This document shows, in pieces, positions 43,994 to 54,654 of a stretch of DNA of 61,994 nucleotides (position 1 is its first letter; each line of letters begins with the position of its first letter). Source of the stretch: Rhodoplanes serenus (lineage in GTDB: Bacteria; Pseudomonadota; Alphaproteobacteria; Rhizobiales; Xanthobacteraceae); NCBI GenBank assembly GCA_945897515.1, contig CAMDFO010000023.1, positions 1 through 61,994 on the forward strand. Reading direction: 5' to 3'. A program made the translations under genes and the position numbers. The notes beneath the pieces are model-generated. The model ran no database searches and had not been told where the DNA came from. It saw only the letters and a list, made by a program, of their open reading frames with translations.

Positions 43994-44197
43994 ATGAGCA
44001 CATTCCTGCTCTACACCCTCATGCTTTACATCGCGGGAGGCCTCGGAATCGCCGCGGCGTTCGTCGCAAAGGGCGTGGATCGGGTGTCTCATCCCATGAC
44101 CTTTACGCTCGGCGCGCGTCTTGCGCTGTTTCCTGGCGCCGTGGCGCTATGGCCCTATGTGCTGCTGCGCTGGATGCGGGCACGGAGCACCGGATGA
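43994..44197 (+). CDS. 67-residue membrane protein, first gene of redox operon
   Basis: A small protein with two hydrophobic segments (about residues 4-26 and 39-58) joined by a positively charged loop (KGVDRVSHP) and ending with basic residues (LLRWMRARSTG). Its stop overlaps the start of the next small gene (ATGA at 44194-44197), so it is translated with it. It may be a small subunit or assembly factor for the membrane cytochrome two genes down. I do not recognise the family. Confidence 0.7.
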   Translation: MSTFLLYTLMLYIAGGLGIAAAFVAKGVDRVSHPMTFTLGARLALFPGAVALWPYVLLRWMRARSTG

Positions 44198-44328
44198 CCC
44201 GCAAGCACCGCTTGGTACACCGTCTCGCCTGGCCGGCGCTGGCGCTCCTGATCGGGCTCGGGATCACCATGGCGCTGGTGCTGCGCCCGCCGCCGGAACC
44301 GCCGAAGACCGCGGAGACGCACCGATGA
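44194..44328 (+). CDS. 44-residue single-span membrane protein, second gene of redox operon
   Basis: A very short gene with ATGA overlaps on both sides (44194-44197 and 44325-44328). The protein is basic at the start (MTRKHRLVHRLAWP), has one hydrophobic helix (about residues 12-30) and ends with a proline-rich tail (LRPPPEPPKTAETHR). The double coupling argues strongly that it is real. Function unknown; a small subunit of the following diheme protein is the simplest idea. Confidence 0.75.
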   Translation: MTRKHRLVHRLAWPALALLIGLGITMALVLRPPPEPPKTAETHR

Positions 44329-45377
44329 GCGTTGGATTCAAAGCGGTGCAGTGGAACCGCGACAAGATCGTCTACGACGTCATTCTTGTTGCAGGTGTTG
44401 CGCTCTACATCGGCGTCTTCGCTGTTATCGGCTGGCGCTGGCACCCGCCCAAGAATCTGCCCGACGTCATCGACATCTGGATCAGGGCGTTCGGCACGGC
44501 GGCGTTTCTGATGCTGACCGTAATCTTGAGTATCGGCCCGCTGGCGCGGCTGGACCGCCGGTTCCTGAAACTGCTCTACAACCGCCGGCATTTCGGCGTG
44601 CTGACGTTCCTCGTCGCGCTGACGCATGTCTGGCTGATGCTCGCGTGGTTCGACGCGCAGGGCCTGTTGCATACGCTGCCGGCAGATTTCACCACCTGGG
44701 GCGACTACGGCAAGTTCATCGGCTTCCCGTTCAAGGCGCTCGGCCTGGCTGCGCTGTTGATCCTGTTTCTGATGGCGGCCACCAGCCACGACTTCTGGCT
44801 CGGCTTTCTGAAGCCTCCGGTCTGGAAGGCGCTGCACATGGCGCTCTATGCGGCCTATGCGCTGGTGGTGATGCATGTCGCGCTCGGCATCATGCAATAC
44901 GAGCGCACGCCGCTGATCCCGCTCATGCTGATCGGAAGTTTCGCCGCGGTGAGCGCACTGCATCTCATTGCCGCCTGGCGTGAGCGGGCCCGCGACCAGG
45001 CGAGCACGCCCATCTCCGATGGCTGGCTCGCGGTCGGCCCGCCGGATGCGATTCCCGACAAAGGTGCATGCATTGTCACCGCGCCCGGTGGCGAGCGCAT
45101 CGCGGTGTTCCGCGACGGCCGCGAGATCGGCGCGCTGACCAATCTTTGCGCCCACCAGAACGGCCCGCTGGGCGAGGGCCGCATCATCGACGGCTGCGTA
45201 ACCTGCCCCTGGCATGGCTACCAGTACCGGCTGTCTGACGGCTGCGCACCGGCGCCTTTCACCGAGAAGCTTGCGACCTACCGCGTGCGGCTGAACAACG
45301 GTGTGGTGGAGATCGATCCGCGTCCCCTGCCGCCGGGCACGCCGGCTTCGATCACAGTTGCGCACGTTGGCGCGTGA
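44325..45377 (+). CDS. Ferric-reductase-like diheme membrane domain fused to a Rieske domain
   Basis: A 350-residue fusion. Residues 1-220 have about six membrane helices with two pairs of histidines at heme-b spacing: His89/His101 and His171/His184 (RRHFG...LTHVW and KALHMAL...VMHVALG), as in ferric reductase/MsrQ-like domains. Residues about 230-345 form a Rieske [2Fe-2S] domain with CAHQNGPLG (Cys275, His277) and CPWHGYQY (Cys294, His297). It could pass electrons between a cytoplasmic Rieske centre and periplasm or quinone. The start overlaps the 44-residue gene's stop. Confidence 0.85.
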   Translation: MSVGFKAVQWNRDKIVYDVILVAGVALYIGVFAVIGWRWHPPKNLPDVIDIWIRAFGTAAFLMLTVILSIGPLARLDRRFLKLLYNRRHFGVLTFLVALTHVWLMLAWFDAQGLLHTLPADFTTWGDYGKFIGFPFKALGLAALLILFLMAATSHDFWLGFLKPPVWKALHMALYAAYALVVMHVALGIMQYERTPLIPLMLIGSFAAVSALHLIAAWRERARDQASTPISDGWLAVGPPDAIPDKGACIVTAPGGERIAVFRDGREIGALTNLCAHQNGPLGEGRIIDGCVTCPWHGYQYRLSDGCAPAPFTEKLATYRVRLNNGVVEIDPRPLPPGTPASITVAHVGA

Positions 45378-45434
45378 GGGCATGCGAAAGATTGCCGGCA
45401 CGGTGTAGGGTAATTTCGACGTGAGGGGGATTTC

Positions 45435-46538
45435 ATGGCGGAAGAGAACTGGGTCGACATCGGCTCCACGGCGGAATTGTCCGGTGCGCCCTTACGACGC
45501 GTGACCACCAAGAATCGCGAACTCGCCGTCTCCTGCAAGGACGGCCAGTTCGGCGTGGTATCGAACGCCTGCAATCATGTCGGTGGTCCGCTCGGCGACG
45601 GGCGGCTCGACGGCGAATACATCGTCTGCCCCTGGCACAACTGGAAATTCCACCGCTGCACCGGCAAGGGCGAACCCGGCTTCGAGGAGGATGCGGTCCC
45701 GGCTTATCCGGTGAAAATAGAGAACGACCGCGTGCTGGTCGATCTGGCGGCGGCCACCAAACGCACCAAGAAGCCGCACGCGCCGCACCCGCTGGCGCGG
45801 AAGGTCGAGCGGGCGCCCGGTCCGTTGCGGCTCGCAGGCATATCGACCTCGGCGATGGATGAGGCCAATCCCCGCTTCTCCGGCTCGGACCACCTGCTCG
45901 GCCACGCGCTGCAATCCTGCGTGCTGCACGGCGCCGAGACCAGGCTGATCCGCCTCAGCGAGCTGAAGTTTCGCGCCTGCGAGGGCTACTACTCGAAATC
46001 GGCGCACGCCTGCACCTGGCCGTGCTCGATCACGCAGATGGACGACGGCGATCAGATGGACCGCGTCTATGAGGCGCTGGTGCACTGGGCCGATGTCATC
46101 ATCGTCGCGTCTCCGATCCGCTGGGGCGCGGCGTCATCGCTCTATTTCAAGATGGCGGAGCGGCTCAACTGTGTGCAGAACGCCGTGACGATCCGCAACC
46201 AAGTGCTGATCCGCAACAAGGTCGCGGGCTTCATCATCGTCGGCGGACAGGACAACATCCAGGGCGTCGCCGGCCAGATGCTGGGTTTCTTCGCCGAGCT
46301 GGGATTCATTTTTCCGCAGTTTCCCTATGTCGCGCACTCCCGTGGCTGGTCACGCGAGGACATGGAGCGCAACGTCGAGATCGTGCGCAACTCGGCGGAA
46401 TTGGCGGAAGGCGCCAGCATGCTCGCCAAACGCTGCCTCGATCTCGCTGCTCACCTGATCGCGCAGGACGATGCGCCGACCTCGATCGAGCGCGGCGGCC
46501 GCAAGGCCCACGATCTGCACATGGAGCCGCGGCCCTAG
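45435..46538 (+). CDS. Rieske ferredoxin domain fused to an iron-sulfur flavodoxin-like domain
   Basis: A 367-residue soluble protein with a GAGGGGG ribosome site. The N-terminal part is a Rieske domain (CNHVGGPLG with Cys46/His48, CPWHNWKF with Cys65/His68). The C-terminal part (from about 130) is an NADPH-dependent FMN reductase/flavodoxin fold (LRLAGISTSAMDEANPRFSG, VIIVASPIRWGAASSLYFK) with a cysteine cluster at 182, 193 and 197 like that of iron-sulfur flavoproteins. It could take electrons from NAD(P)H and hand them to the membrane Rieske protein encoded just upstream. Stop overlaps the creatininase gene's stop by four bases. Confidence 0.83.
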   Translation: MAEENWVDIGSTAELSGAPLRRVTTKNRELAVSCKDGQFGVVSNACNHVGGPLGDGRLDGEYIVCPWHNWKFHRCTGKGEPGFEEDAVPAYPVKIENDRVLVDLAAATKRTKKPHAPHPLARKVERAPGPLRLAGISTSAMDEANPRFSGSDHLLGHALQSCVLHGAETRLIRLSELKFRACEGYYSKSAHACTWPCSITQMDDGDQMDRVYEALVHWADVIIVASPIRWGAASSLYFKMAERLNCVQNAVTIRNQVLIRNKVAGFIIVGGQDNIQGVAGQMLGFFAELGFIFPQFPYVAHSRGWSREDMERNVEIVRNSAELAEGASMLAKRCLDLAAHLIAQDDAPTSIERGGRKAHDLHMEPRP

Positions 46539-47314
46539 CCGCGCGGCGTCTGCTGATTTTGCAGGAGTTGCTTCAACACACCGCCGGCGGCTTCGACCAC
46601 GCGGATGACCACGGCCTGGCCGTGCTTGGCGGAGGCGTCCTGCGCGTTGCCGATGACGCCCTGATCGGCGATGCGCCTGTCGTCGGACGACCACGGCCAG
46701 CTCACGCCCGGATCGAGGATCGTCGCGTTTACCGCAGCGACATCCGGCGGCGTCTTCAAGTCGGCGATTGAGTCGCGGCGCACCAGGTGCGGCGCCAGCG
46801 CCAGCATCGCCGAGGTCTCGTCCTTGCCGCCGTGGATCTCCGGTACGCCGGTATCCGAAGGCGGGCTCATCAGCGCGCCGGTGTGGATCGCGCAGATATT
46901 AAGACCGAAATCGGCGCGCAGGTCGTGTGCCAGAGCTTCGAGGATTCCCCGGTTGCCACCGTGACCGTTGACGATCGCCAGACTGCGCGCCGGCAAGGCG
47001 CGGATGATTTCGCGGCCGAGGTCGTGCAGCAGTGCGACCATGGTTGCGGTCGAAAGCGACAGGGTGCCCGGCGCCCAGGCGTGCTCGCGCGACAGGCCGA
47101 TCGGCAGCGCCGGCAATTGCCACAGGTCGTAGGTTTCGCCCCATCGCTCCACAATGGCGTGCGTGAAGGCTTCAGCCAGGACGAGGTCGGTGTTGAGCGG
47201 CAGGTGCGGCCCGTGCTGTTCGATCGAGCCCAACGGCAAACAGAGCACCGAGGATGCGCGCAGCGAGCGCTGGATTTCCGGCGACGTAAGATCGCCGATG
47301 CGCCGGGAGACCAT
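46535..47314 (-). CDS. Creatininase/ArfB-like amidohydrolase
   Basis: A 259-residue creatininase-family protein with an intact two-metal site: GSIEQHGPHLPLNTD (Glu32, His34, Asp43), NGHGGNRG and HGGKDETSAML. The family includes creatinine amidohydrolase, the mycofactocin protein MftE and archaeal ArfB, which deformylates the GTP-cyclohydrolase product in flavin and F420 synthesis. Its position next to a GTP cyclohydrolase II gene and other pterin/flavin-type genes makes a formamide- or pyrimidine-processing role attractive; that is inference. Confidence 0.82.
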   Translation of the reverse strand: MVSRRIGDLTSPEIQRSLRASSVLCLPLGSIEQHGPHLPLNTDLVLAEAFTHAIVERWGETYDLWQLPALPIGLSREHAWAPGTLSLSTATMVALLHDLGREIIRALPARSLAIVNGHGGNRGILEALAHDLRADFGLNICAIHTGALMSPPSDTGVPEIHGGKDETSAMLALAPHLVRRDSIADLKTPPDVAAVNATILDPGVSWPWSSDDRRIADQGVIGNAQDASAKHGQAVVIRVVEAAGGVLKQLLQNQQTPRG

Positions 47315-47412
47315 GCGTCAGCCTCCGAACGTCCGGATCATGGTCGGCGCGAGAGAGTAGGCAGGCGTGACGCCGACCGGCATGTCTGCCTCCTCTGCCC
47401 CCGCGCGCAGAC

Positions 47413-48579
47413 TCACGGCACGAGCGGGGCTTCTTTCGCCTCGTCATCCTTGGCATCCGCCAGCGACGACAACAGATGGCCGAGGTGGTGGCCGGCGCGC
47501 GACGCCTTTGCCGTCATGTAGCGGCGGTTGTCGGCGTTGATCGGCGTTTCGAGCGGCATCCGGCCGGTGATCTCGATGCCCGACTTCGCCAGCCCGTCGA
47601 GCTTGGCGGGATTGTTGGTGAGGAGCACGACGCGCGTGCAGCCCAGCATCTGCAGCATCCGCACCGCGACCCCATAGTCGCGCTCGTCGTCGTCGAAGCC
47701 AAGCGTGGTGTTGGCGTCGACCGTGTCGAGGCCGCCGTCCTGCAGCTTGTAGGTGCGCATCTTGTTGGCGAGGCCGACGCCGCGGCCTTCCTGCGCAAGA
47801 TAGAGGATGATGCCGCCGCCGGCCTCCTGCAGGCGCGTGAGCGCGAGCTGAAGCTGGTCGCCGCAATCGCAACGCCGCGAGCCGAACACGTCGCCGGTCA
47901 GGCACGCGGAATGAATACGAACCGGAACTGGTTTCGACAGATCGGGCGTGTCGACGATGACCGCCACCGCATCGTCGCCGAACGCATCACGGAACACCAC
48001 GAAACGGGTCCGGACGCCCGAAGCAAGCGGCACGTGCGCTTCGCCGGCGATCTGGAGCGACTGCGTAGCGTCGGCGCGGTAGCGCGCCACGGCGCTGGCT
48101 TCGACGGTCACGATGGGAGGATCGAACTTGGCCGCCTGCCCCGGCACGGTATCGGCGACCAGAACGGCGGGAAGCACCTGCGCCAACTTGACGAGTTCGA
48201 TCGCCGCATTCGCCGCAGTTCCTGCAGGCTCCGGCAGAAAATCATGCTCGGCTTTGGCGTCGGCGACCAGCGCCAGGATGGTGCGGGCGTCGACCTCGGG
48301 CGGCAGCTCCAGCGCCACCGGCTCTACGGCATCGATGCCGAGCGAGCGCGCGCGACTGGCTGTAATCACCAGTCGAGGCAGGACCGGCGCGCACAGCGCC
48401 CTGAACGCCGCAAGCCTGCTGATATCGAGCCCTTCCACCGGAAGAGTGATGAGCATTTCTCCGTTGGCGATCAGCACCGGCCGCCCGGCGCGGAACTCCG
48501 CCAACCCGCGCCCTACGCCGACCTGTTCGCTGGTACCGAAAAGTATGGAACCCGCCTCGCCCCTTGCACCACCACGCAT
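47413..48579 (-). CDS. ribA: GTP cyclohydrolase II with extra N-terminal domain
   Basis: A 388-residue protein. The C-terminal half (about 183-370) is a complete GTP cyclohydrolase II: zinc cysteines 226, 237 and 239 (SACLTGDVFGSRRCDCGDQL), AQEGRGVGLANKM and LLTNNPAKLDGL. It converts GTP to a diaminopyrimidine ribosyl phosphate, formate and pyrophosphate. The first 180 residues look like a decayed RibB-type region (GLAEFRAGRPVLIANGE) lacking the DHBP synthase active-site DRENEGD. Start is uncertain; an in-frame ATG lies at 48645. A paralogue elsewhere may serve riboflavin synthesis, with this copy serving the neighbouring cluster. Confidence 0.88.
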   Translation of the reverse strand: MRGGARGEAGSILFGTSEQVGVGRGLAEFRAGRPVLIANGEMLITLPVEGLDISRLAAFRALCAPVLPRLVITASRARSLGIDAVEPVALELPPEVDARTILALVADAKAEHDFLPEPAGTAANAAIELVKLAQVLPAVLVADTVPGQAAKFDPPIVTVEASAVARYRADATQSLQIAGEAHVPLASGVRTRFVVFRDAFGDDAVAVIVDTPDLSKPVPVRIHSACLTGDVFGSRRCDCGDQLQLALTRLQEAGGGIILYLAQEGRGVGLANKMRTYKLQDGGLDTVDANTTLGFDDDERDYGVAVRMLQMLGCTRVVLLTNNPAKLDGLAKSGIEITGRMPLETPINADNRRYMTAKASRAGHHLGHLLSSLADAKDDEAKEAPLVP

Positions 48580-48674
48580 AAGTATTTTTTCCACTCCATC
48601 ACGTGCCAATTTGTCGCGCACCCTAAAACACCCCAAGGGACGCATCTGTTCCCGAGTCGCTTCGGAGGTATCTC

Positions 48675-48782
48675 ATGCAGTATTCGTGTGACAGAATAAA
48701 GGAATATCCGAAGCAAGTCCCGTATCTTGCGGGGCTCCCCAAGCGTTCAGCGAGCAGGATCGCGAATCGCGGGCGCCCCTGA
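48675..48782 (+). CDS. 35-codon small gene or leader upstream of the RibD-like reductase
   Basis: An ATG preceded by CGGAGG with six bases between opens a 35-codon frame that ends with TGA at 48780-48782. The peptide begins MQYSCDRIKEYPKQ and is basic at its end. It is in the same frame as the reductase gene that starts 30 bases later, and its stop codon lies in the loop of a GC-rich hairpin. The strong ribosome site suggests real translation, either as a small protein or as a leader that couples translation of the reductase. Confidence 0.45.
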   Translation: MQYSCDRIKEYPKQVPYLAGLPKRSASRIANRGRP

Positions 48783-48789
48783 GGGGCGC
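48773..48789 (+). promoter_or_regulatory. Hairpin enclosing the leader stop codon
   Basis: GCGCCCC (48773-48779) and GGGGCGC (48783-48789) form a perfect 7-bp stem whose three-base loop is exactly the TGA stop of the 35-codon frame. The downstream reductase ribosome site begins about 10 bases later, so ribosomes finishing the leader would open this structure. Confidence 0.4.
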
Positions 48790-48812
48790 TCGGCCGGAAA
48801 GGTGGCGTCTTG

Positions 48813-49583
48813 GTGACATCCTGGGATTCCGTTCCTGAAAAGTTCCGGGCGTCCTCTGCAGCTCTGCCGGAGCCGTGGGAGGACATCTTTGGAGGGTTAC
48901 GGTCCAGCCGGACCAACGGATGCATTGCCGTCGGCCAGATCGGGCAATCGCTCGATGGGCGGATCGCCACGCCCACGGGGCATTCGCACTATATCAATGG
49001 GTCGGCGGGTCTGGACCACCTGCACCGGTTGCGTGCGCTGGTCGACGCCGTGGTCGTCGGCATCGGTACCGCCATCGCCGATGATCCGCAGCTCACGGTG
49101 CGGCGGGTGACCGGTCCCAACCCGGCGCGGGTGGTGCTCGACCCAGGCGGGCGACTGCCAGCGGGCGCCAAGCTGCTGGCGGACGATGGAGTGCGCCGCC
49201 TGGTGGTGACGGCCGAGGAAACGCGGCCATCGTTCCCGTCCGGGGTCGAGATTATCGCCCTGCCCAGAACCGGCGGGCAGATTTCCCCAGCGGAGATTCT
49301 GACTGCCCTGGCCGAGCGAGGCTTGCGCCGCGTCCTGATCGAGGGCGGCGCCGACACGGTCTCGCGCTTTCTCGCCGCCGGCTGCCTCGACCGGCTCCAC
49401 GTGGTGGTCGCACCGATCATTCTCGGATCCGGGCGGACCGGCATCAACTTGCCGCCAATCGAGCGCGCCGACCAGGCATTGCGCGCGAGGATGCGCATTC
49501 ACCGGCTCGATGACGAGGTGCTGTTCGATTGCGATCTGTCGGCTCAGCGCGCGGCTGCCGGCCGCGCGAACACATCGACGTGA
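48813..49583 (+). CDS. Stand-alone RibD C-terminal-type reductase (dihydrofolate-reductase-like)
   Basis: A 256-residue protein from GTG at 48813 with GGAAAGG upstream. After a 38-residue N-terminal extension it follows the RibD reductase/yeast Rib7 fold: IGQSLDGRIA, VDAVVVGIGTAIADDPQL, RVLIEGGADTVSRFL and APIILGSGRTGI. The deaminase half of normal RibD is absent. Such reductases convert the ribosyl side chain of diaminopyrimidine phosphates to ribityl with NADPH. Located divergently from ribA; its 3' end overlaps the methyltransferase 3' end by 40 bases on opposite strands. Confidence 0.85.
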   Translation: MTSWDSVPEKFRASSAALPEPWEDIFGGLRSSRTNGCIAVGQIGQSLDGRIATPTGHSHYINGSAGLDHLHRLRALVDAVVVGIGTAIADDPQLTVRRVTGPNPARVVLDPGGRLPAGAKLLADDGVRRLVVTAEETRPSFPSGVEIIALPRTGGQISPAEILTALAERGLRRVLIEGGADTVSRFLAAGCLDRLHVVVAPIILGSGRTGINLPPIERADQALRARMRIHRLDDEVLFDCDLSAQRAAAGRANTST

Positions 49584-50335
49584 CCGACGCGGATCGATGA
49601 AAGACCGGCAGCTACGAAAACGTTATGGCGCGTGAGCCATGCGAGCACGTCGGGAAGCGGCACCGTGCCCATCTCGCGCGCGGCGGCGGCCCAGCCGGAC
49701 AATATCTCGGTCTGTATTTCTCGATCGGCGGTCTCGAACGACCAATCGGCCGCGCCCTGCAAAACCGTGTAGCCGACGCGCTCGAACTGCTCGACGGCGG
49801 CCTGCGCGGCAGTCGGCCCCAAAGCCGGTCCAAAACCTTTATCGCTGCGCTGATGCGCGTTGACCGCGGCGACGATCTTGTCGTCCAGAGGATCGGAGGG
49901 CGTGAATTCGGCGCGGCCATCGTATGTCAGTGCGGCATAGACCGGAATGCGCCGCGCCGCGGTTTCGATTGCCAGACGCTCGAGCCACTCGGCGGACACC
50001 AGATCGAGCAGCGCGGACGTGGTGACAAGATCGACCGGTCCGTCGAGCGCAACCTCCAGATCGCGGGCGAGATCGACCGGTACCGCCGTCGCATTGGGCA
50101 CGTCGGCCGCACGGGCCAGCAGGCTCAAGTCATTGTCGTACAGGCGCCAGTGCTGACGCGCCGCGATGCGCGGACCCAAGGCGCGCAAGGTGGAGCCGGT
50201 GCCGCATGCAAGATCGGCGATGTTGACCGAGGGCAGACCGGCGAACGCCGCGGCCACGGCTTGCAACACCGCGGGATTGCGCGCGCGCCGATCGAAAGGC
50301 TCACGCAGCGAGAGCCATGCCGCCGAAAAGCTCAA
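49544..50335 (-). CDS. SAM-dependent methyltransferase, class I
   Basis: A 263-residue protein with motif I IADLACGTGSTLRALG (residues about 39-54) and a later acidic motif WRLYDNDLSLL for SAM binding, followed by DLVTTSALLDLVSAEWLE. Substrate unknown. Last gene of a tightly packed minus-strand operon (dehydrogenase, PTPS-like, GT4, methyltransferase); its start overlaps the glycosyltransferase stop by four bases. Confidence 0.82.
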   Translation of the reverse strand: MSFSAAWLSLREPFDRRARNPAVLQAVAAAFAGLPSVNIADLACGTGSTLRALGPRIAARQHWRLYDNDLSLLARAADVPNATAVPVDLARDLEVALDGPVDLVTTSALLDLVSAEWLERLAIETAARRIPVYAALTYDGRAEFTPSDPLDDKIVAAVNAHQRSDKGFGPALGPTAAQAAVEQFERVGYTVLQGAADWSFETADREIQTEILSGWAAAAREMGTVPLPDVLAWLTRHNVFVAAGLSSIRVGHVDVFARPAAAR

Positions 50336-51375
50336 GTCACCGCCTCCAGCGCGTTGGAGAACCGCTTGGCGGAATCCGCCCAGCTCGCCAGTCGTATCGC
50401 CGCCGCCCGCGCGCCAGCCGCAAGACGCCGCCGCTCCGCCGTGTCCTCGATCAAACGGCGCAAAGCCCGCGCCAGCGCATCGATATTATCCGGCGGGACC
50501 AGTACGCCGGCCTCGCTCGGCACCGTATCCGGGATCGCGCCGCCGGTGGTGCCGATCACCGGCAGGCCGTGAGCAATGGCCTCGGCGTAGGCCATGCCAT
50601 AGCCCTCGAAGCGCGAGGCCAGCACGAATATATCGGCCGCCCGATAGAGCGCCGACAGGCGATCGGCGGAGACGGCGCCAAGCAGCGCGACGCGGCCGCC
50701 GAAATCGTGACGTGCGATATCGGCATCGAGTCGCGCGGCCGTCGCCGGCTCGCGGCGCTCGCCCGCGATCGTGAGCCGCCAAGGCAGACCGGGCATCTGT
50801 GCCAGGGCAGCGATCAGCACGTCATAACCTTTGCGAGGCACCAATGTGCCGATGGAAAGCAGCCGCACCACACCGTCGGTGCTGCCCTGCGCCGGCTCGC
50901 CGCGATCAGTGCCAGGCAGCGCAATTGCGATGCGATCGGCGGGCACATCGTAGTCCGCAATCAATACCCGTGCAGTCGATGGGCTGGTGACGATGACACC
51001 GCGAGCGGCCGCGAGCGCCGTGCGTTCGCTTGTGAGCAAAGCCTGCGCCTCCACGGCCGACACACCGGTTTCCAGCGCGAGCGGATGATGGACCAGCGCG
51101 ACCAGAGGCCGGGCACGAAGCGCCTGCGCCGCCTCCGGCAGCACCCCGAAGGCAAGCCCGTCGACCACGATCGGGACATCCCCGGACACCGCCGCAAGAC
51201 GCGCCTGGGCTTGCGCCTTTTGTGTGTCGCTCGGGCGCGGAAATCCATCGCCCAGGCCGATCACGTCGACCTGCCAGCCAAGCCGCTGCAATTCCGCGAT
51301 CATGCGACGGTCATAGGCATAACCGCCGGTCGGGGTCGCAAGATCGCCCGGCACCGCGAACGCAACCCGTCTCAC
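50332..51375 (-). CDS. Glycosyltransferase family 4 (GT-B)
   Basis: A 347-residue retaining glycosyltransferase. The GTG at 51375 overlaps the upstream stop (GTGA); a GTG one codon earlier is also possible. Family marks are [18 protein letters not shown] and the donor-binding EX7E region [20 protein letters not shown]. The N-terminus has only a short GGYAYDRRM acceptor loop. Acting with pterin/flavin-type enzymes, it may glycosylate a small heterocycle rather than a polysaccharide; that is inference from the operon. Confidence 0.87.
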
Positions 51376-51773
51376 CACAACGACGCCTCGTACCAGGCGC
51401 GCGCCACATGCGATTCCGAGATGGTGACACGGATCGCCTTCAACTCCCGGCCCTCGCGACCGAGCTTGCCCTCGCGCGCCGCGTCGGCGAGCCGCTCATA
51501 GATATGTTTGGTGAGGAATTCCGTGGTGGTGTTCTGGCCCTTGAACGCCGGGACATCGTCGAGATTGCGATAGTTGAGCGCGCTCAGCACCGCCTTCAGC
51601 GCCTCGTGCGCCTGGCCGATATCGACCACGATGCCGTTGACGTCGAGCTCATCGGCAATGAACGCCGCGTCGACCACGAAGGTGGCGCCGTGCAGCGCCT
51701 GCGCCGGGCCGAACACGGCGCCGCGAAACGAATGGGCGATCATGATGTGGTCGCGAACTTCGACGGCGAACAA
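51372..51773 (-). CDS. 6-pyruvoyl-tetrahydropterin synthase/QueD fold protein, degenerate active site
   Basis: A 133-residue T-fold protein similar to PTPS/QueD. Key residues are partly lost. The first zinc His is kept (His14 in IAHSF), but the usual C-x3-HGH motif reads [10 protein letters not shown]: Ala24 replaces the catalytic Cys and Ala30 the third zinc His, with His28 kept. The second catalytic His also seems absent. The C-terminal [11 protein letters not shown] resembles the pterin-binding Glu region. It may bind a pterin-like ring for a different reaction. It overlaps the GT4 gene and lies 16 bases after the dehydrogenase. Confidence 0.8.
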
Positions 51774-51789
51774 GGCAAATCTCCTTCAA

Positions 51790-52779
51790 TCAGGGATAGT
51801 CGATACGTTGGCACAAGACGCCGCTGCCCGGTGCGAGAATTTTCGGCAGCCGGCCGGGCAGGTCATTGAAGGCAACCGGCGGCGCCAGCAGTGCATCGAG
51901 CCGTGCGTCAGCGAGGAGATCGATCGCCGCCTCCAGCCTGCGCCGGTGCGTCCATTTCGTGCGGTGCGACGGCGCGACCTTGCCGACCTGGCTCGAGACG
52001 AGCTTGAGACGCCGGCTATGGAAAGCGCCGCCGAGCGGCACCGCGACGTCGCCCGAGCCGTACCAGCTCAGCTCCAGCACTATGGCTTCGTCGCCCGCGA
52101 GGTTGAGCGCCGTCACGAGGCCCGAAGCCGTGGCGCTGGTGTGCACCACGAGGTCGCATTCGGTCGGCGCAGCGTCGGGTCGCGCAAAGCGCAGGCCGAA
52201 CGCCGACGCGATCTCCGCTCGCATTGGATCGACGTCCACCAGGGTGACATCGGCGCCCGCCAGCCGCTTGCAAAGCAGCCCGACCAGCGAGCCCACCACG
52301 CCTGCGCCGACCACTGCGACGCTGGCAAAAGGTCCCGGCCCCGCATCCCAGGTTGCGTTGAGCGCGGTCTCCATGTTGGCGGCGAGGATCGCCCGCGCGG
52401 CCGGCACGCCGCCCGGCAATGGCGCCACCGCCTCCGCCGGAACGTCGAACAATGTCTGGTGCGGATAGAGCGTAAAGACGGTCCTGCCGACCAGCCCAGG
52501 CGGCCCGGCCTCGACCCGGCCCACGGTGGCGTACCCGTATTTCACCGGGAACGGGAACGCGCCGCCCATGAACGGCGCCCGCATCCGCTGGTATTCGCTT
52601 TCCGGCACCCGTCCCGCCGCCACCAGCGCCTCGGTGCCCCGGCTGAGCGCGCCGTGAAGCGCTCGCACGCGCACCATTCCGGGGGCGAGCGGCGCAAGCA
52701 TCTCCTGCCGGATTTCGGCCCGGCCCGGGCCGACATACCAGAGCGCCTGTGCCGTTTCGGTACTCTCCGCCACGAACAA
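51790..52779 (-). CDS. MDR-family dehydrogenase without catalytic zinc ligands
   Basis: A 329-residue medium-chain dehydrogenase/reductase. The cofactor domain shows VAVVGAGVVGSLVGLLC and VTLVDVDPMR (Asp suggests NAD). In the catalytic domain the usual zinc Cys and the GHE His are replaced: the segments read GALSRGTEAL and KYGYATVG. It recalls BchC-like or other zinc-free MDR enzymes. First gene of the operon with the PTPS-like, GT4 and methyltransferase genes, divergent from the OpgH-like gene at 52867. Probably reduces or oxidises an intermediate of that pathway. Confidence 0.8.
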   Translation of the reverse strand: MFVAESTETAQALWYVGPGRAEIRQEMLAPLAPGMVRVRALHGALSRGTEALVAAGRVPESEYQRMRAPFMGGAFPFPVKYGYATVGRVEAGPPGLVGRTVFTLYPHQTLFDVPAEAVAPLPGGVPAARAILAANMETALNATWDAGPGPFASVAVVGAGVVGSLVGLLCKRLAGADVTLVDVDPMRAEIASAFGLRFARPDAAPTECDLVVHTSATASGLVTALNLAGDEAIVLELSWYGSGDVAVPLGGAFHSRRLKLVSSQVGKVAPSHRTKWTHRRRLEAAIDLLADARLDALLAPPVAFNDLPGRLPKILAPGSGVLCQRIDYP

Positions 52780-52866: not shown

Positions 52867-54654
52867 GTGCTTGAACGCTCCGCCCCTGACCTTGCGCTAA
52901 CCTCCCGTTCCGACAAGAGAATTGTCGGACGACGCCTGCTTTTTTCGGCGCTCGTCATGGCCACCATTGCGGGCCTGCTTTGGCTCGCGGCCTCCGCGCT
53001 TTCAGCCGGCGGGTTCGGCGTTCTCGACGCAATCCTGCTCGCCATGTTTGCCGCGACCATGCCCTGGTCGGTGATCGGGTTCTGGAACGCCACCATCGGC
53101 TTTTTCATCATGCGGTTCGCGAGCGATCCGGTCGCGACCGTGCTGCCGATCGCGGCGCGCGTGCCGCACGACGCACCGATCACCGCCTCGACCGCGATCG
53201 TGATGTGCGTGCGCAACGAGCCGCCGGATCGCGTCATTCGCAACCTCGATGCCATGATGCGCGACATCGCGGCCGCGGGCGCGGCGGAACGTTTCCATCT
53301 CTATGTGCTGAGCGACACCACGCTGGCCGATGTCGCCGTGTTGGAGGAAGGCAGCTTCGCTGCCCTGGCTGAGCAATGGCGGGGCCGGTTCCCGGTCATC
53401 TATCGCCGGCGCGACATCAACACCGGCTTCAAGGCCGGCAACATCCGCGACTTTCTCGATCGCTGGGGTGACCGGCACGAGCTGATGGTCACGCTCGACA
53501 CCGACAGCTTCATGACCGCCGCCGCGATCCTGCGCATGGTGAGCGTCGTTCAGGCGGACGAGAAGCTCGGCATCCTGCAAGGCCTCGTGGTCGGCATGCC
53601 GTCGACCAGCGCATTCGCGCGGATATTCCAGTTCGGCATGCGGCTCGGCATGCGCTCATGGACCATCGGCAGCGCGTGGTGGCAGGCCGACTGCGGCCCG
53701 TACTGGGGCCACAACGCGGCGATCCGCATCGCACCGTTCAAGCAGCACTGTCATATCCCCACGCTACCGGGCGAAGGCGTGTTGCGCGGACACGTGCTGA
53801 GCCACGACCAGATCGAAGCCGCCCTGATGCGCCGCGCCGGCTACGACGTGCGGGTGCTGCCGGAGGAGGACCTCGGCTGGGAAGAGAACCCGCCGACACT
53901 GATCGAGTTCATCCGGCGAGACCAACGCTGGTGCCAAGGCACCCTGCAATACGGCTTCTTCGTCGGGAAACCGGGACTGAAGCCGGTGAGTCGCTTCCAG
54001 CTCGCCTTCGCGATGCTGATGTTCCTGAGCTCGCCCGCCTGGATCGGTCTCTTGGTGTTCGGCACCTTGGCATTGGCGCTCGCGCCGTCGCCGTCCGAGT
54101 TCATCCATCCCGGCACCGGGCTGTTGCTGCTCGCGATCATCCTGGTGATGTGGTTCGCGCCGAAGATCGCGACCGTGCTCGACGTGCTGACGCGGGCCGA
54201 GCTGCGCCGCGCCTTCGGCGGCACCGCGCGCTTCCTGGCAAGCGTTGCGACCGAAACCATCTTCTTCATTCTGCTGTCGCCGATCATGTGGGTCTGCCAC
54301 ACGTTGTTTCTCGCGGGCCTGCCGTTCGGCAAAGCAATCGGCTGGATCGGCCAGATGCGCGACGACCACACCATCCCGTGGTCCGTCGCGTTCAAGCAAT
54401 TGTGGCCGCACACCGCGCTGGGTCTTGCCTCCATCGCCGTTCTGGCCGGCACGCACCCGGTTGCCATTCCCTACGCGCTGCTGATCGCCGGCGGCCCCGC
54501 CCTCGCCATTCCCTTGTGCGTCGTCACGGCGTGGCCGTCGCTCGGCAGCGCGCTCGCCCGCATCGGCATCGGCCGGCTGCCGGAAGAGACCGCGCCGCCG
54601 CCGGCGCTGTCGGGGCTAGCCCTGCCCGCGCTTGCCGCCGCGCGCACGGGCTAG
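52867..54654 (+). CDS. OpgH/MdoH-like membrane glycosyltransferase (GT2)
   Basis: A 595-residue inner-membrane glucosyltransferase from GTG. Two N-terminal helices (about 20-45 and 52-75) precede a cytoplasmic GT2 domain with VMCVRNEPPDRVIRNLDAMM, the DxD-type LDTDSFM and RRDQRWCQG (the QxxRW-type motif). Several C-terminal helices follow. OpgH makes the beta-1,2 or related glucan backbone of osmoregulated periplasmic glucans. No opgG is next to it; instead it is followed three bases later by an FkbM methyltransferase. Confidence 0.85.
   Translation: MLERSAPDLALTSRSDKRIVGRRLLFSALVMATIAGLLWLAASALSAGGFGVLDAILLAMFAATMPWSVIGFWNATIGFFIMRFASDPVATVLPIAARVPHDAPITASTAIVMCVRNEPPDRVIRNLDAMMRDIAAAGAAERFHLYVLSDTTLADVAVLEEGSFAALAEQWRGRFPVIYRRRDINTGFKAGNIRDFLDRWGDRHELMVTLDTDSFMTAAAILRMVSVVQADEKLGILQGLVVGMPSTSAFARIFQFGMRLGMRSWTIGSAWWQADCGPYWGHNAAIRIAPFKQHCHIPTLPGEGVLRGHVLSHDQIEAALMRRAGYDVRVLPEEDLGWEENPPTLIEFIRRDQRWCQGTLQYGFFVGKPGLKPVSRFQLAFAMLMFLSSPAWIGLLVFGTLALALAPSPSEFIHPGTGLLLLAIILVMWFAPKIATVLDVLTRAELRRAFGGTARFLASVATETIFFILLSPIMWVCHTLFLAGLPFGKAIGWIGQMRDDHTIPWSVAFKQLWPHTALGLASIAVLAGTHPVAIPYALLIAGGPALAIPLCVVTAWPSLGSALARIGIGRLPEETAPPPALSGLALPALAAARTG

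Follow-up and report, generated by a model that had tools for sequence, protein, structure and literature searches.

A PTPS-IV gene cluster of Rhodoplanes serenus, conserved in Proteobacteria and Actinobacteria, as a candidate route from GTP to a pterin-like compound

Introduction

PTPS-IV, a subfamily of 6-pyruvoyltetrahydropterin synthase (PTPS) homologues, has been described from 561 sequences with the signature FGPAQ and with PF00925 and PF01872 genes as neighbours (PMC5445326). The same subfamily with the same neighbours, here a GTP cyclohydrolase II (GCHII) and a RibD_C reductase, is encoded in 61,994 nucleotides of Rhodoplanes serenus DNA (contig CAMDFO010000023.1, C23 of a 4.47-Mb assembly that is 88.9% complete). 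We refer to this whole stretch as the window. In the parts of the PTPS-IV account at hand, no medium-chain dehydrogenase/reductase (MDR), GT4 glycosyltransferase, methyltransferase, lipid enzyme or creatininase is named and no pathway is proposed, and PF00925 is labelled GTP cyclohydrolase I including FolE2, whereas the enzyme found here is GCHII (PMC5445326). We report that the PTPS-IV gene of the window belongs to a larger cluster conserved in two phyla, and we propose, with a probability of about 0.55, that this cluster turns GTP into a pterin-like compound with sugar and methyl substituents.

A second precedent is SCO6650-SCO6655 of Streptomyces coelicolor, presumably the matching locus, the enzymology of which is reported to have been described by Spoonamore et al. 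(2006, 2008). Relatives of SCO6650 in five loci (L144-L148, 86-94% identical) show the order MDR, PTPS, GT4, methyltransferase and C11, then creatininase and GCHII. According to Spoonamore et al. 2006, SCO6655, with methionine at its switch position, reportedly makes a formylated pyrimidine and stops there; the window GCHII has tyrosine instead.

The riboflavin pathway (RibA/RibD) shares GCHII and the RibD_C reductase with the cluster, but the cluster reductase is without the deaminase domain. RibE and RibH were not noticed among the listed recurrent neighbours of the cluster, although no search by name was made. In Sinorhizobium meliloti, BrbF is described as a creatininase-family formamidase for a formylated GCHII-type product (PMC9478397), and the window creatininase is of the same family. 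A literature search, most subscription journals lying outside its coverage, found no paper on the whole cluster and retrieved none for SCO6650. Beyond the PTPS-IV, GCHII and RibD_C part already in print, the cluster is apparently uncharacterised.

Results

All seven predicted genes were found as open reading frames at the places predicted, and Pfam and hidden Markov model (HMM) scans matched each to its proposed family, the methyltransferase being the weakest match. The MDR-superfamily dehydrogenase gene (51790..52779) is the first of a four-gene operon on the minus strand. It is followed by the genes for the PTPS-IV protein (COG0720; 51372..51773; PF01242, 1.9e-23), the GT4 glycosyltransferase (50332..51378; PF00534, 5e-31) and a divergent class I S-adenosylmethionine methyltransferase (49544..50335; PF13649, 6e-4, below the Pfam cut-off). 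Of the original prediction of four genes in an overlapping operon, the four co-directional genes and two overlaps stand (7 bp for PTPS/GT4, 4 bp for GT4/methyltransferase), while MDR and PTPS are separated by a gap of 16 bp. From the plus strand, the reductase gene (48810..49583; PF01872, 3e-41) converges on the methyltransferase gene with an overlap of 40 bp. Next beyond it, both on the minus strand, lie the genes for GCHII (47413..48645; PF00925, 4.6e-54, residues 202-364) and an accessory creatininase-family amidohydrolase (46535..47314; PF02633, 1.5e-55).

The PTPS protein is present in 15 of the 249 genomes of our phylum sample, the genome of the window included. Around it in the other 14 (20 kb examined, 12.7 kb in one of them) we found MDR in 14, GT4 in 14, the methyltransferase and RibD_C in 12 each, GCHII in 6 and creatininase in 1. 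A scan of GTDB gave at least 582 confirmed relatives, from which 80 loci were kept; to judge from the organism names in their titles, these presumably represent Alpha-, Beta- and Gammaproteobacteria as well as Actinobacteria. In an actinobacterial phylum sample, 34 of 296 genomes matched the PTPS protein at 1e-15. We took eight of the nine strongest matches, the ninth (G258) being locus L107 of the existing set, and left out the other 25 (8.6e-22 or weaker). Finally, 112 of 348 genomes in the order of the actinobacterial genome G257 matched at 1e-30, and 40 of these 112, hand-picked down the list, were used.

Gene maps were made with family HMMs for 143 loci, the window included. The 116 loci that extend 6 kb or more in each direction from PTPS were counted (65 proteobacterial, the window among them, and 51 actinobacterial) and the 27 shorter ones left out; unless whole loci are mentioned, counts refer to genes within 6 kb of PTPS. 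Among proteobacterial and actinobacterial loci, respectively, MDR was found in 63/65 and 50/51, GT4 in 62/65 and 50/51, and the methyltransferase in 58/65 and 43/51. RibD_C followed with 49/65 and 28/51, GCHII with 28/65 and 40/51, and creatininase with 8/65 and 22/51. In most mapped loci PTPS stands between MDR and GT4 in the same direction, and in one (L025) GT4 and methyltransferase form a single frame of 656 amino acids. The neighbourhood is more than chance: it is a conserved cluster in Proteobacteria and Actinobacteria.

The six core families occur together in the whole locus in 24 of the 65 proteobacterial and 19 of the 51 actinobacterial loci. All seven do so in only five (the window among them) and three, respectively. 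Thus, the exact seven-gene set does not hold as a unit, and the creatininase is accessory. Pieces of the cluster can separate yet remain in the same genome. In G251, MDR, PTPS, GT4 and methyltransferase (L063) lie on one contig and RibD_C, GCHII and cytochrome b561 on another, and in G191 GCHII sits with a YfhO-like gene. Apart from such splitting, the genes in relatives are mostly clustered among related neighbours and not scattered. The predicted GTP pathway with glycosyl and methyl tailoring fits the gene set conserved in the two phyla and the GT4-methyltransferase fusion; it does not carry over to the exact set or to the role given to the creatininase.

From this gene content, the conserved clustering and the motifs kept and lost, we infer a series of chemical steps, their order and a product. 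In the first step, GCHII would open GTP to 2,5-diamino-6-ribosylamino-4(3H)-pyrimidinone 5'-phosphate. The window enzyme has an N-terminal extension of about 200 amino acids, its zinc cysteines are intact, and its Tyr299 aligns with the switch residue Tyr105 of Escherichia coli GCHII (2bz0). We do not claim the extension as a dead RibB domain (hhalign 52%, E 1.4e-4, one target; no hit with HMMER). A second, divergent GCHII-like family was seen in G091, G012, G217, G200, G191 and G259 (L262-L267), in frames of 426-459 amino acids with tyrosine at the switch position and, by automatic alignment, two of the three zinc-position cysteines.

In the second step, the stand-alone RibD_C reductase would convert the ribosyl to a ribityl group without prior deamination, and the 2-amino-4-oxo ('pterin-type') ring edge would be retained. 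By Pfam this protein has RibD_C only, and not the deaminase plus reductase of a riboflavin-operon RibD. The two best chains for its family profile were 6p8c (2.1e-46), named 2,5-diamino-6-ribosylamino-4(3H)-pyrimidinone 5'-phosphate reductase, and 2azn (2.8e-41); the RibD-length chain 8dq9 came after them (1.3e-35), a ranking that fits reduction without deamination.

In the third step, the zinc-less PTPS-IV protein, keeping the glutamate expected to bind the 2-amino-4-oxo edge, may act on or assemble the pterin-like core. The window protein, single-copy in its genome, has both the FGPAQ signature and the GCHII and RibD_C neighbours of PTPS-IV. Its closest solved relative is SCO6650 (3d7j, 4e-45), about 61% identical to it and 94% identical to L146. 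The motif FGPAQxxHGA is kept in the window and in 142 of 143 rows. In 15/15 alignment rows, HGA is aligned to the zinc-ligand HGH of 4ntk. One zinc ligand of catalytic PTPS/QueD enzymes is therefore gone, and by alignment the catalytic residues are gone too. Glu120 near the C-terminus, which we take from its position to be the pterin anchor, is invariant in 15/15 rows.

In the fourth step, the MDR dehydrogenase, GT4 and methyltransferase would oxidise, glycosylate and methylate the pterin-like core. The MDR protein is without the zinc alcohol dehydrogenase (zinc-ADH) Pfam domain and has weak Rossmann matches only (ApbA, AlaDh); a search with the profile of its family finds chains of the zinc-ADH superfamily at about 1e-11. 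It is weakly BchC-like (TIGR01202 bchC, 1e-6, far under the model cut-off), and its AlphaFold2 model has a predicted local distance difference test score (pLDDT) of 91.8. The methyltransferase family profile reaches S-adenosylmethionine methyltransferases at 1.8e-5 (AlphaFold2 model, pLDDT 96.2).

In Actinobacteria and some Proteobacteria, a fifth step may follow, in which a CDP-alcohol phosphotransferase and a flippase-like membrane protein (LPG-synthase-TM) would attach the product to a lipid or move it. CDP-alcohol phosphotransferase was found in 43/51 actinobacterial and 12/65 proteobacterial loci, the flippase-like protein in 49/51 and 8/65, and an inositol-phosphatase-like gene in 14/51 and 4/65. 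All 60 CDP-alcohol phosphotransferase copies fit a loosened version of the family signature. The two genes in Actinobacteria hint at a membrane-linked product; it would be pterin-like, bearing a sugar and a methyl group, and perhaps lipid-linked.

Many Proteobacteria have an MdoH-like glucosyltransferase at the divergent position that these lipid genes occupy elsewhere (46/65 proteobacterial loci, 0/51 actinobacterial loci). The window has such a neighbour, a gene for an MdoH/OpgH-like GT2 glucosyltransferase (52867..54654, plus strand; NF003958, 519 bits against a cut-off of 419) that is divergent from the MDR gene. A search of the R. serenus assembly found no MdoG despite this MdoH-like gene. 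Cytochrome b561 was found in 23/65 proteobacterial and 0/51 actinobacterial loci. On the other side of the cluster (44121-46538), the window encodes two Rieske proteins. The first also has a membrane domain that resembles ferric reductases, and the second is a fusion with an FMN-reductase domain; of 94 loci compared, L034 alone shares both (73-85% identity).

The residue at the switch position bears on the outcome of the GCHII reaction, and enzymes that form the formylated pyrimidine (FAPy; SCO6655 type) are not known to carry tyrosine there. Among the actinobacterial loci, 41 have a cluster GCHII; its tyrosine is lost in 22/22 with creatininase (methionine in 13, histidine in 9) and kept in 19/19 without it. 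The 34 proteobacterial loci with a cluster GCHII have tyrosine in 32 and leucine in one (L092), and the position is unreadable in one (L048). The window GCHII, with its tyrosine, is not of the FAPy-forming type, and the ArfB-like deformylase role suggested for the adjacent creatininase is therefore not obviously needed there.

We also placed the creatininases in a quick tree with SH-aLRT support only. It used 20 of the 30 cluster rows, 10 actinobacterial near-copies having been dropped. Of 18 further rows, ten were dropped, seven as the cluster genes themselves and L162, L163 and L168 for long branches or shortness; L286, a row from 'elsewhere', is the L025 gene itself. The 20 cluster creatininases and the BrbF-like L289 all fall inside one 95* clade. 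Within it, the window enzyme, L033 and L051 form one group (100*) and the actinobacterial enzymes another (100*); neither belongs to the 98* subclade that joins five proteobacterial cluster enzymes with L289. L289 was named BrbF-like from its neighbours, a MarR gene identified with Pfam and a GTPase judged by eye to be CobW-like. The paralogues L152-L154 were rejected as BrbF, their listed neighbours being, by eye, unlike MarR or CobW.

A bolder scheme would have both phyla share a route from GTP, without deamination, to a new class of membrane-linked pterin, a glycosylated and methylated 8-ribityl-type 2-amino-4-oxo-pteridine anchored by the CDP-alcohol phosphotransferase. Its first step would be split in one actinobacterial clade, with a GCHII that retains the formyl group and a formamidase of the creatininase family each doing part. 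We regard this scheme in full as rather unlikely.

Discussion

Several observations weigh against a pathway from GTP to a glycosylated, methylated pterin-like compound. The cluster is without any characterised product or activity, and 37 of the 65 proteobacterial loci are without GCHII within 6 kb of PTPS. The evidence for reduction without prior deamination is mixed. Three further chains that bear the diaminopyrimidinone reductase name (9l1f, 9l1h and 4ha7) came at 1.6e-21 to 2.3e-19, below bacterial RibD chains. The window reductase alone scores slightly better with the bacterial ribD models (133.8 bits with TIGR00227, 109.3 with TIGR00326) than with the model of the archaeal reductase (102.4). 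Because of this mixed evidence, we slightly lowered our confidence in the pathway and in the bolder scheme, and slightly raised the first two alternatives discussed below.

The link between creatininase and switch residue fails in Proteobacteria, where five tyrosine loci, the window among them, carry creatininase. In addition, a quick tree of PTPS and MDR for 73 of 74 loci places the actinobacterial pattern essentially in a single clade, where starred branches provide 4 independent pairs (p 1 in a sign test). A first step shared by GCHII and creatininase in that clade is only suggestive, since the association is essentially that of one clade with too few independent events. A further difficulty comes from the zinc cysteines, which were checked in 37 stretches, 29 with a match and 8 without (L269 and L274 were misaligned and read by motif instead). 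Five genomes that carry the cluster (G249, G250, G252, G253 and G260; L240, L151, L242, L243 and L248) have a single PF00925 match each, which is without zinc cysteines, so that no enzyme for their first GTP step, or for the first step towards riboflavin, is apparent. In S. meliloti, the first enzyme is likewise reported as undiscovered (PMC9478397).

The alternative that survives best, though we consider it unlikely, is that the window GCHII, perhaps with the creatininase, starts riboflavin synthesis as a housekeeping enzyme and lies by the PTPS-IV operon through shared supply or chance. The assembly has two PF00925 matches, the window copy and a RibBA-like copy on another contig (L032; C32:19297-19740, minus strand). 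In the latter, the GCHII half is without zinc cysteines, and the protein resembles a 3,4-dihydroxy-2-butanone 4-phosphate (DHBP) synthase to which an inactive GCHII half is joined, a type known as RibBX. Such copies have lost the zinc cysteines in several relatives as well. The second, housekeeping GCHII looked for in the original prediction thus exists as a gene, but the window copy is perhaps the only working one. No other zinc-intact copy was found in the assembly, so that the window copy may also feed riboflavin, and the window creatininase is likewise the only one found there. By the original prediction, the pathway idea would fail if this GCHII were the only one in the genome and the other genes had unrelated neighbours elsewhere; a sole intact GCHII is what we found, but the neighbours in relatives are related.

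Other observations weigh against this alternative. The assembly is only 88.9% complete, and the neighbouring reductase has no deaminase domain, while another RibD_C match, in a frame of 417 amino acids, lies on contig C6 of the same genome. Furthermore, besides the cluster copy, another GCHII of more than 200 bits exists in G050, G257 and G258, a score-based call made irrespective of the zinc cysteines of these second copies, as expected if the cluster copy is dedicated. The five cluster-bearing genomes without any intact GCHII match also count against a housekeeping role.

Less probable still is that two unrelated modules lie side by side. One would make a cell-surface glycolipid or glycan (GT4, methyltransferase, MDR, MdoH-like protein or CDP-alcohol phosphotransferase, flippase-like protein), the other would be a small pyrimidine module, and PTPS-IV would sense a pterin and not make one. 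The separation of the two sets in G251 and the loss of a zinc ligand and, by alignment, of the catalytic residues in PTPS-IV are consistent with this explanation. However, the co-directional place of PTPS between MDR and GT4 in most loci argues against it, as does the presence of the separated G251 pieces within one genome.

A toxoflavin-like azapteridine antibiotic cluster would share GCHII and a methyltransferase with the window. Toxoflavin clusters have a RibD-type deaminase, however, which the cluster reductase lacks, and they are not known to contain a PTPS/GT4/MDR core. We hold this explanation to be very improbable. Least credible of all is a part for PTPS-IV in F420 biosynthesis, raised by a mention of unpublished work on archaeal F420 in one paper (PMC5041015). 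For bacteria, the distribution of CofD contradicts it: of 31 cluster-bearing genomes searched, 9 gave a match and 22, the R. serenus assembly among them, gave none.

A cluster without known product in two phyla suggests that a cofactor, pigment or membrane compound has so far escaped notice. The genes name the enzymes with which to search for it, and the pterin-like compound proposed here would be such a product. If the split first step were true, it would supply the formyl-retaining SCO6655 enzyme with its missing partner. An old riddle now becomes testable: why the Streptomyces GCHII paralogue reportedly halts at a formylated intermediate, and whether the adjoining creatininase finishes the reaction.

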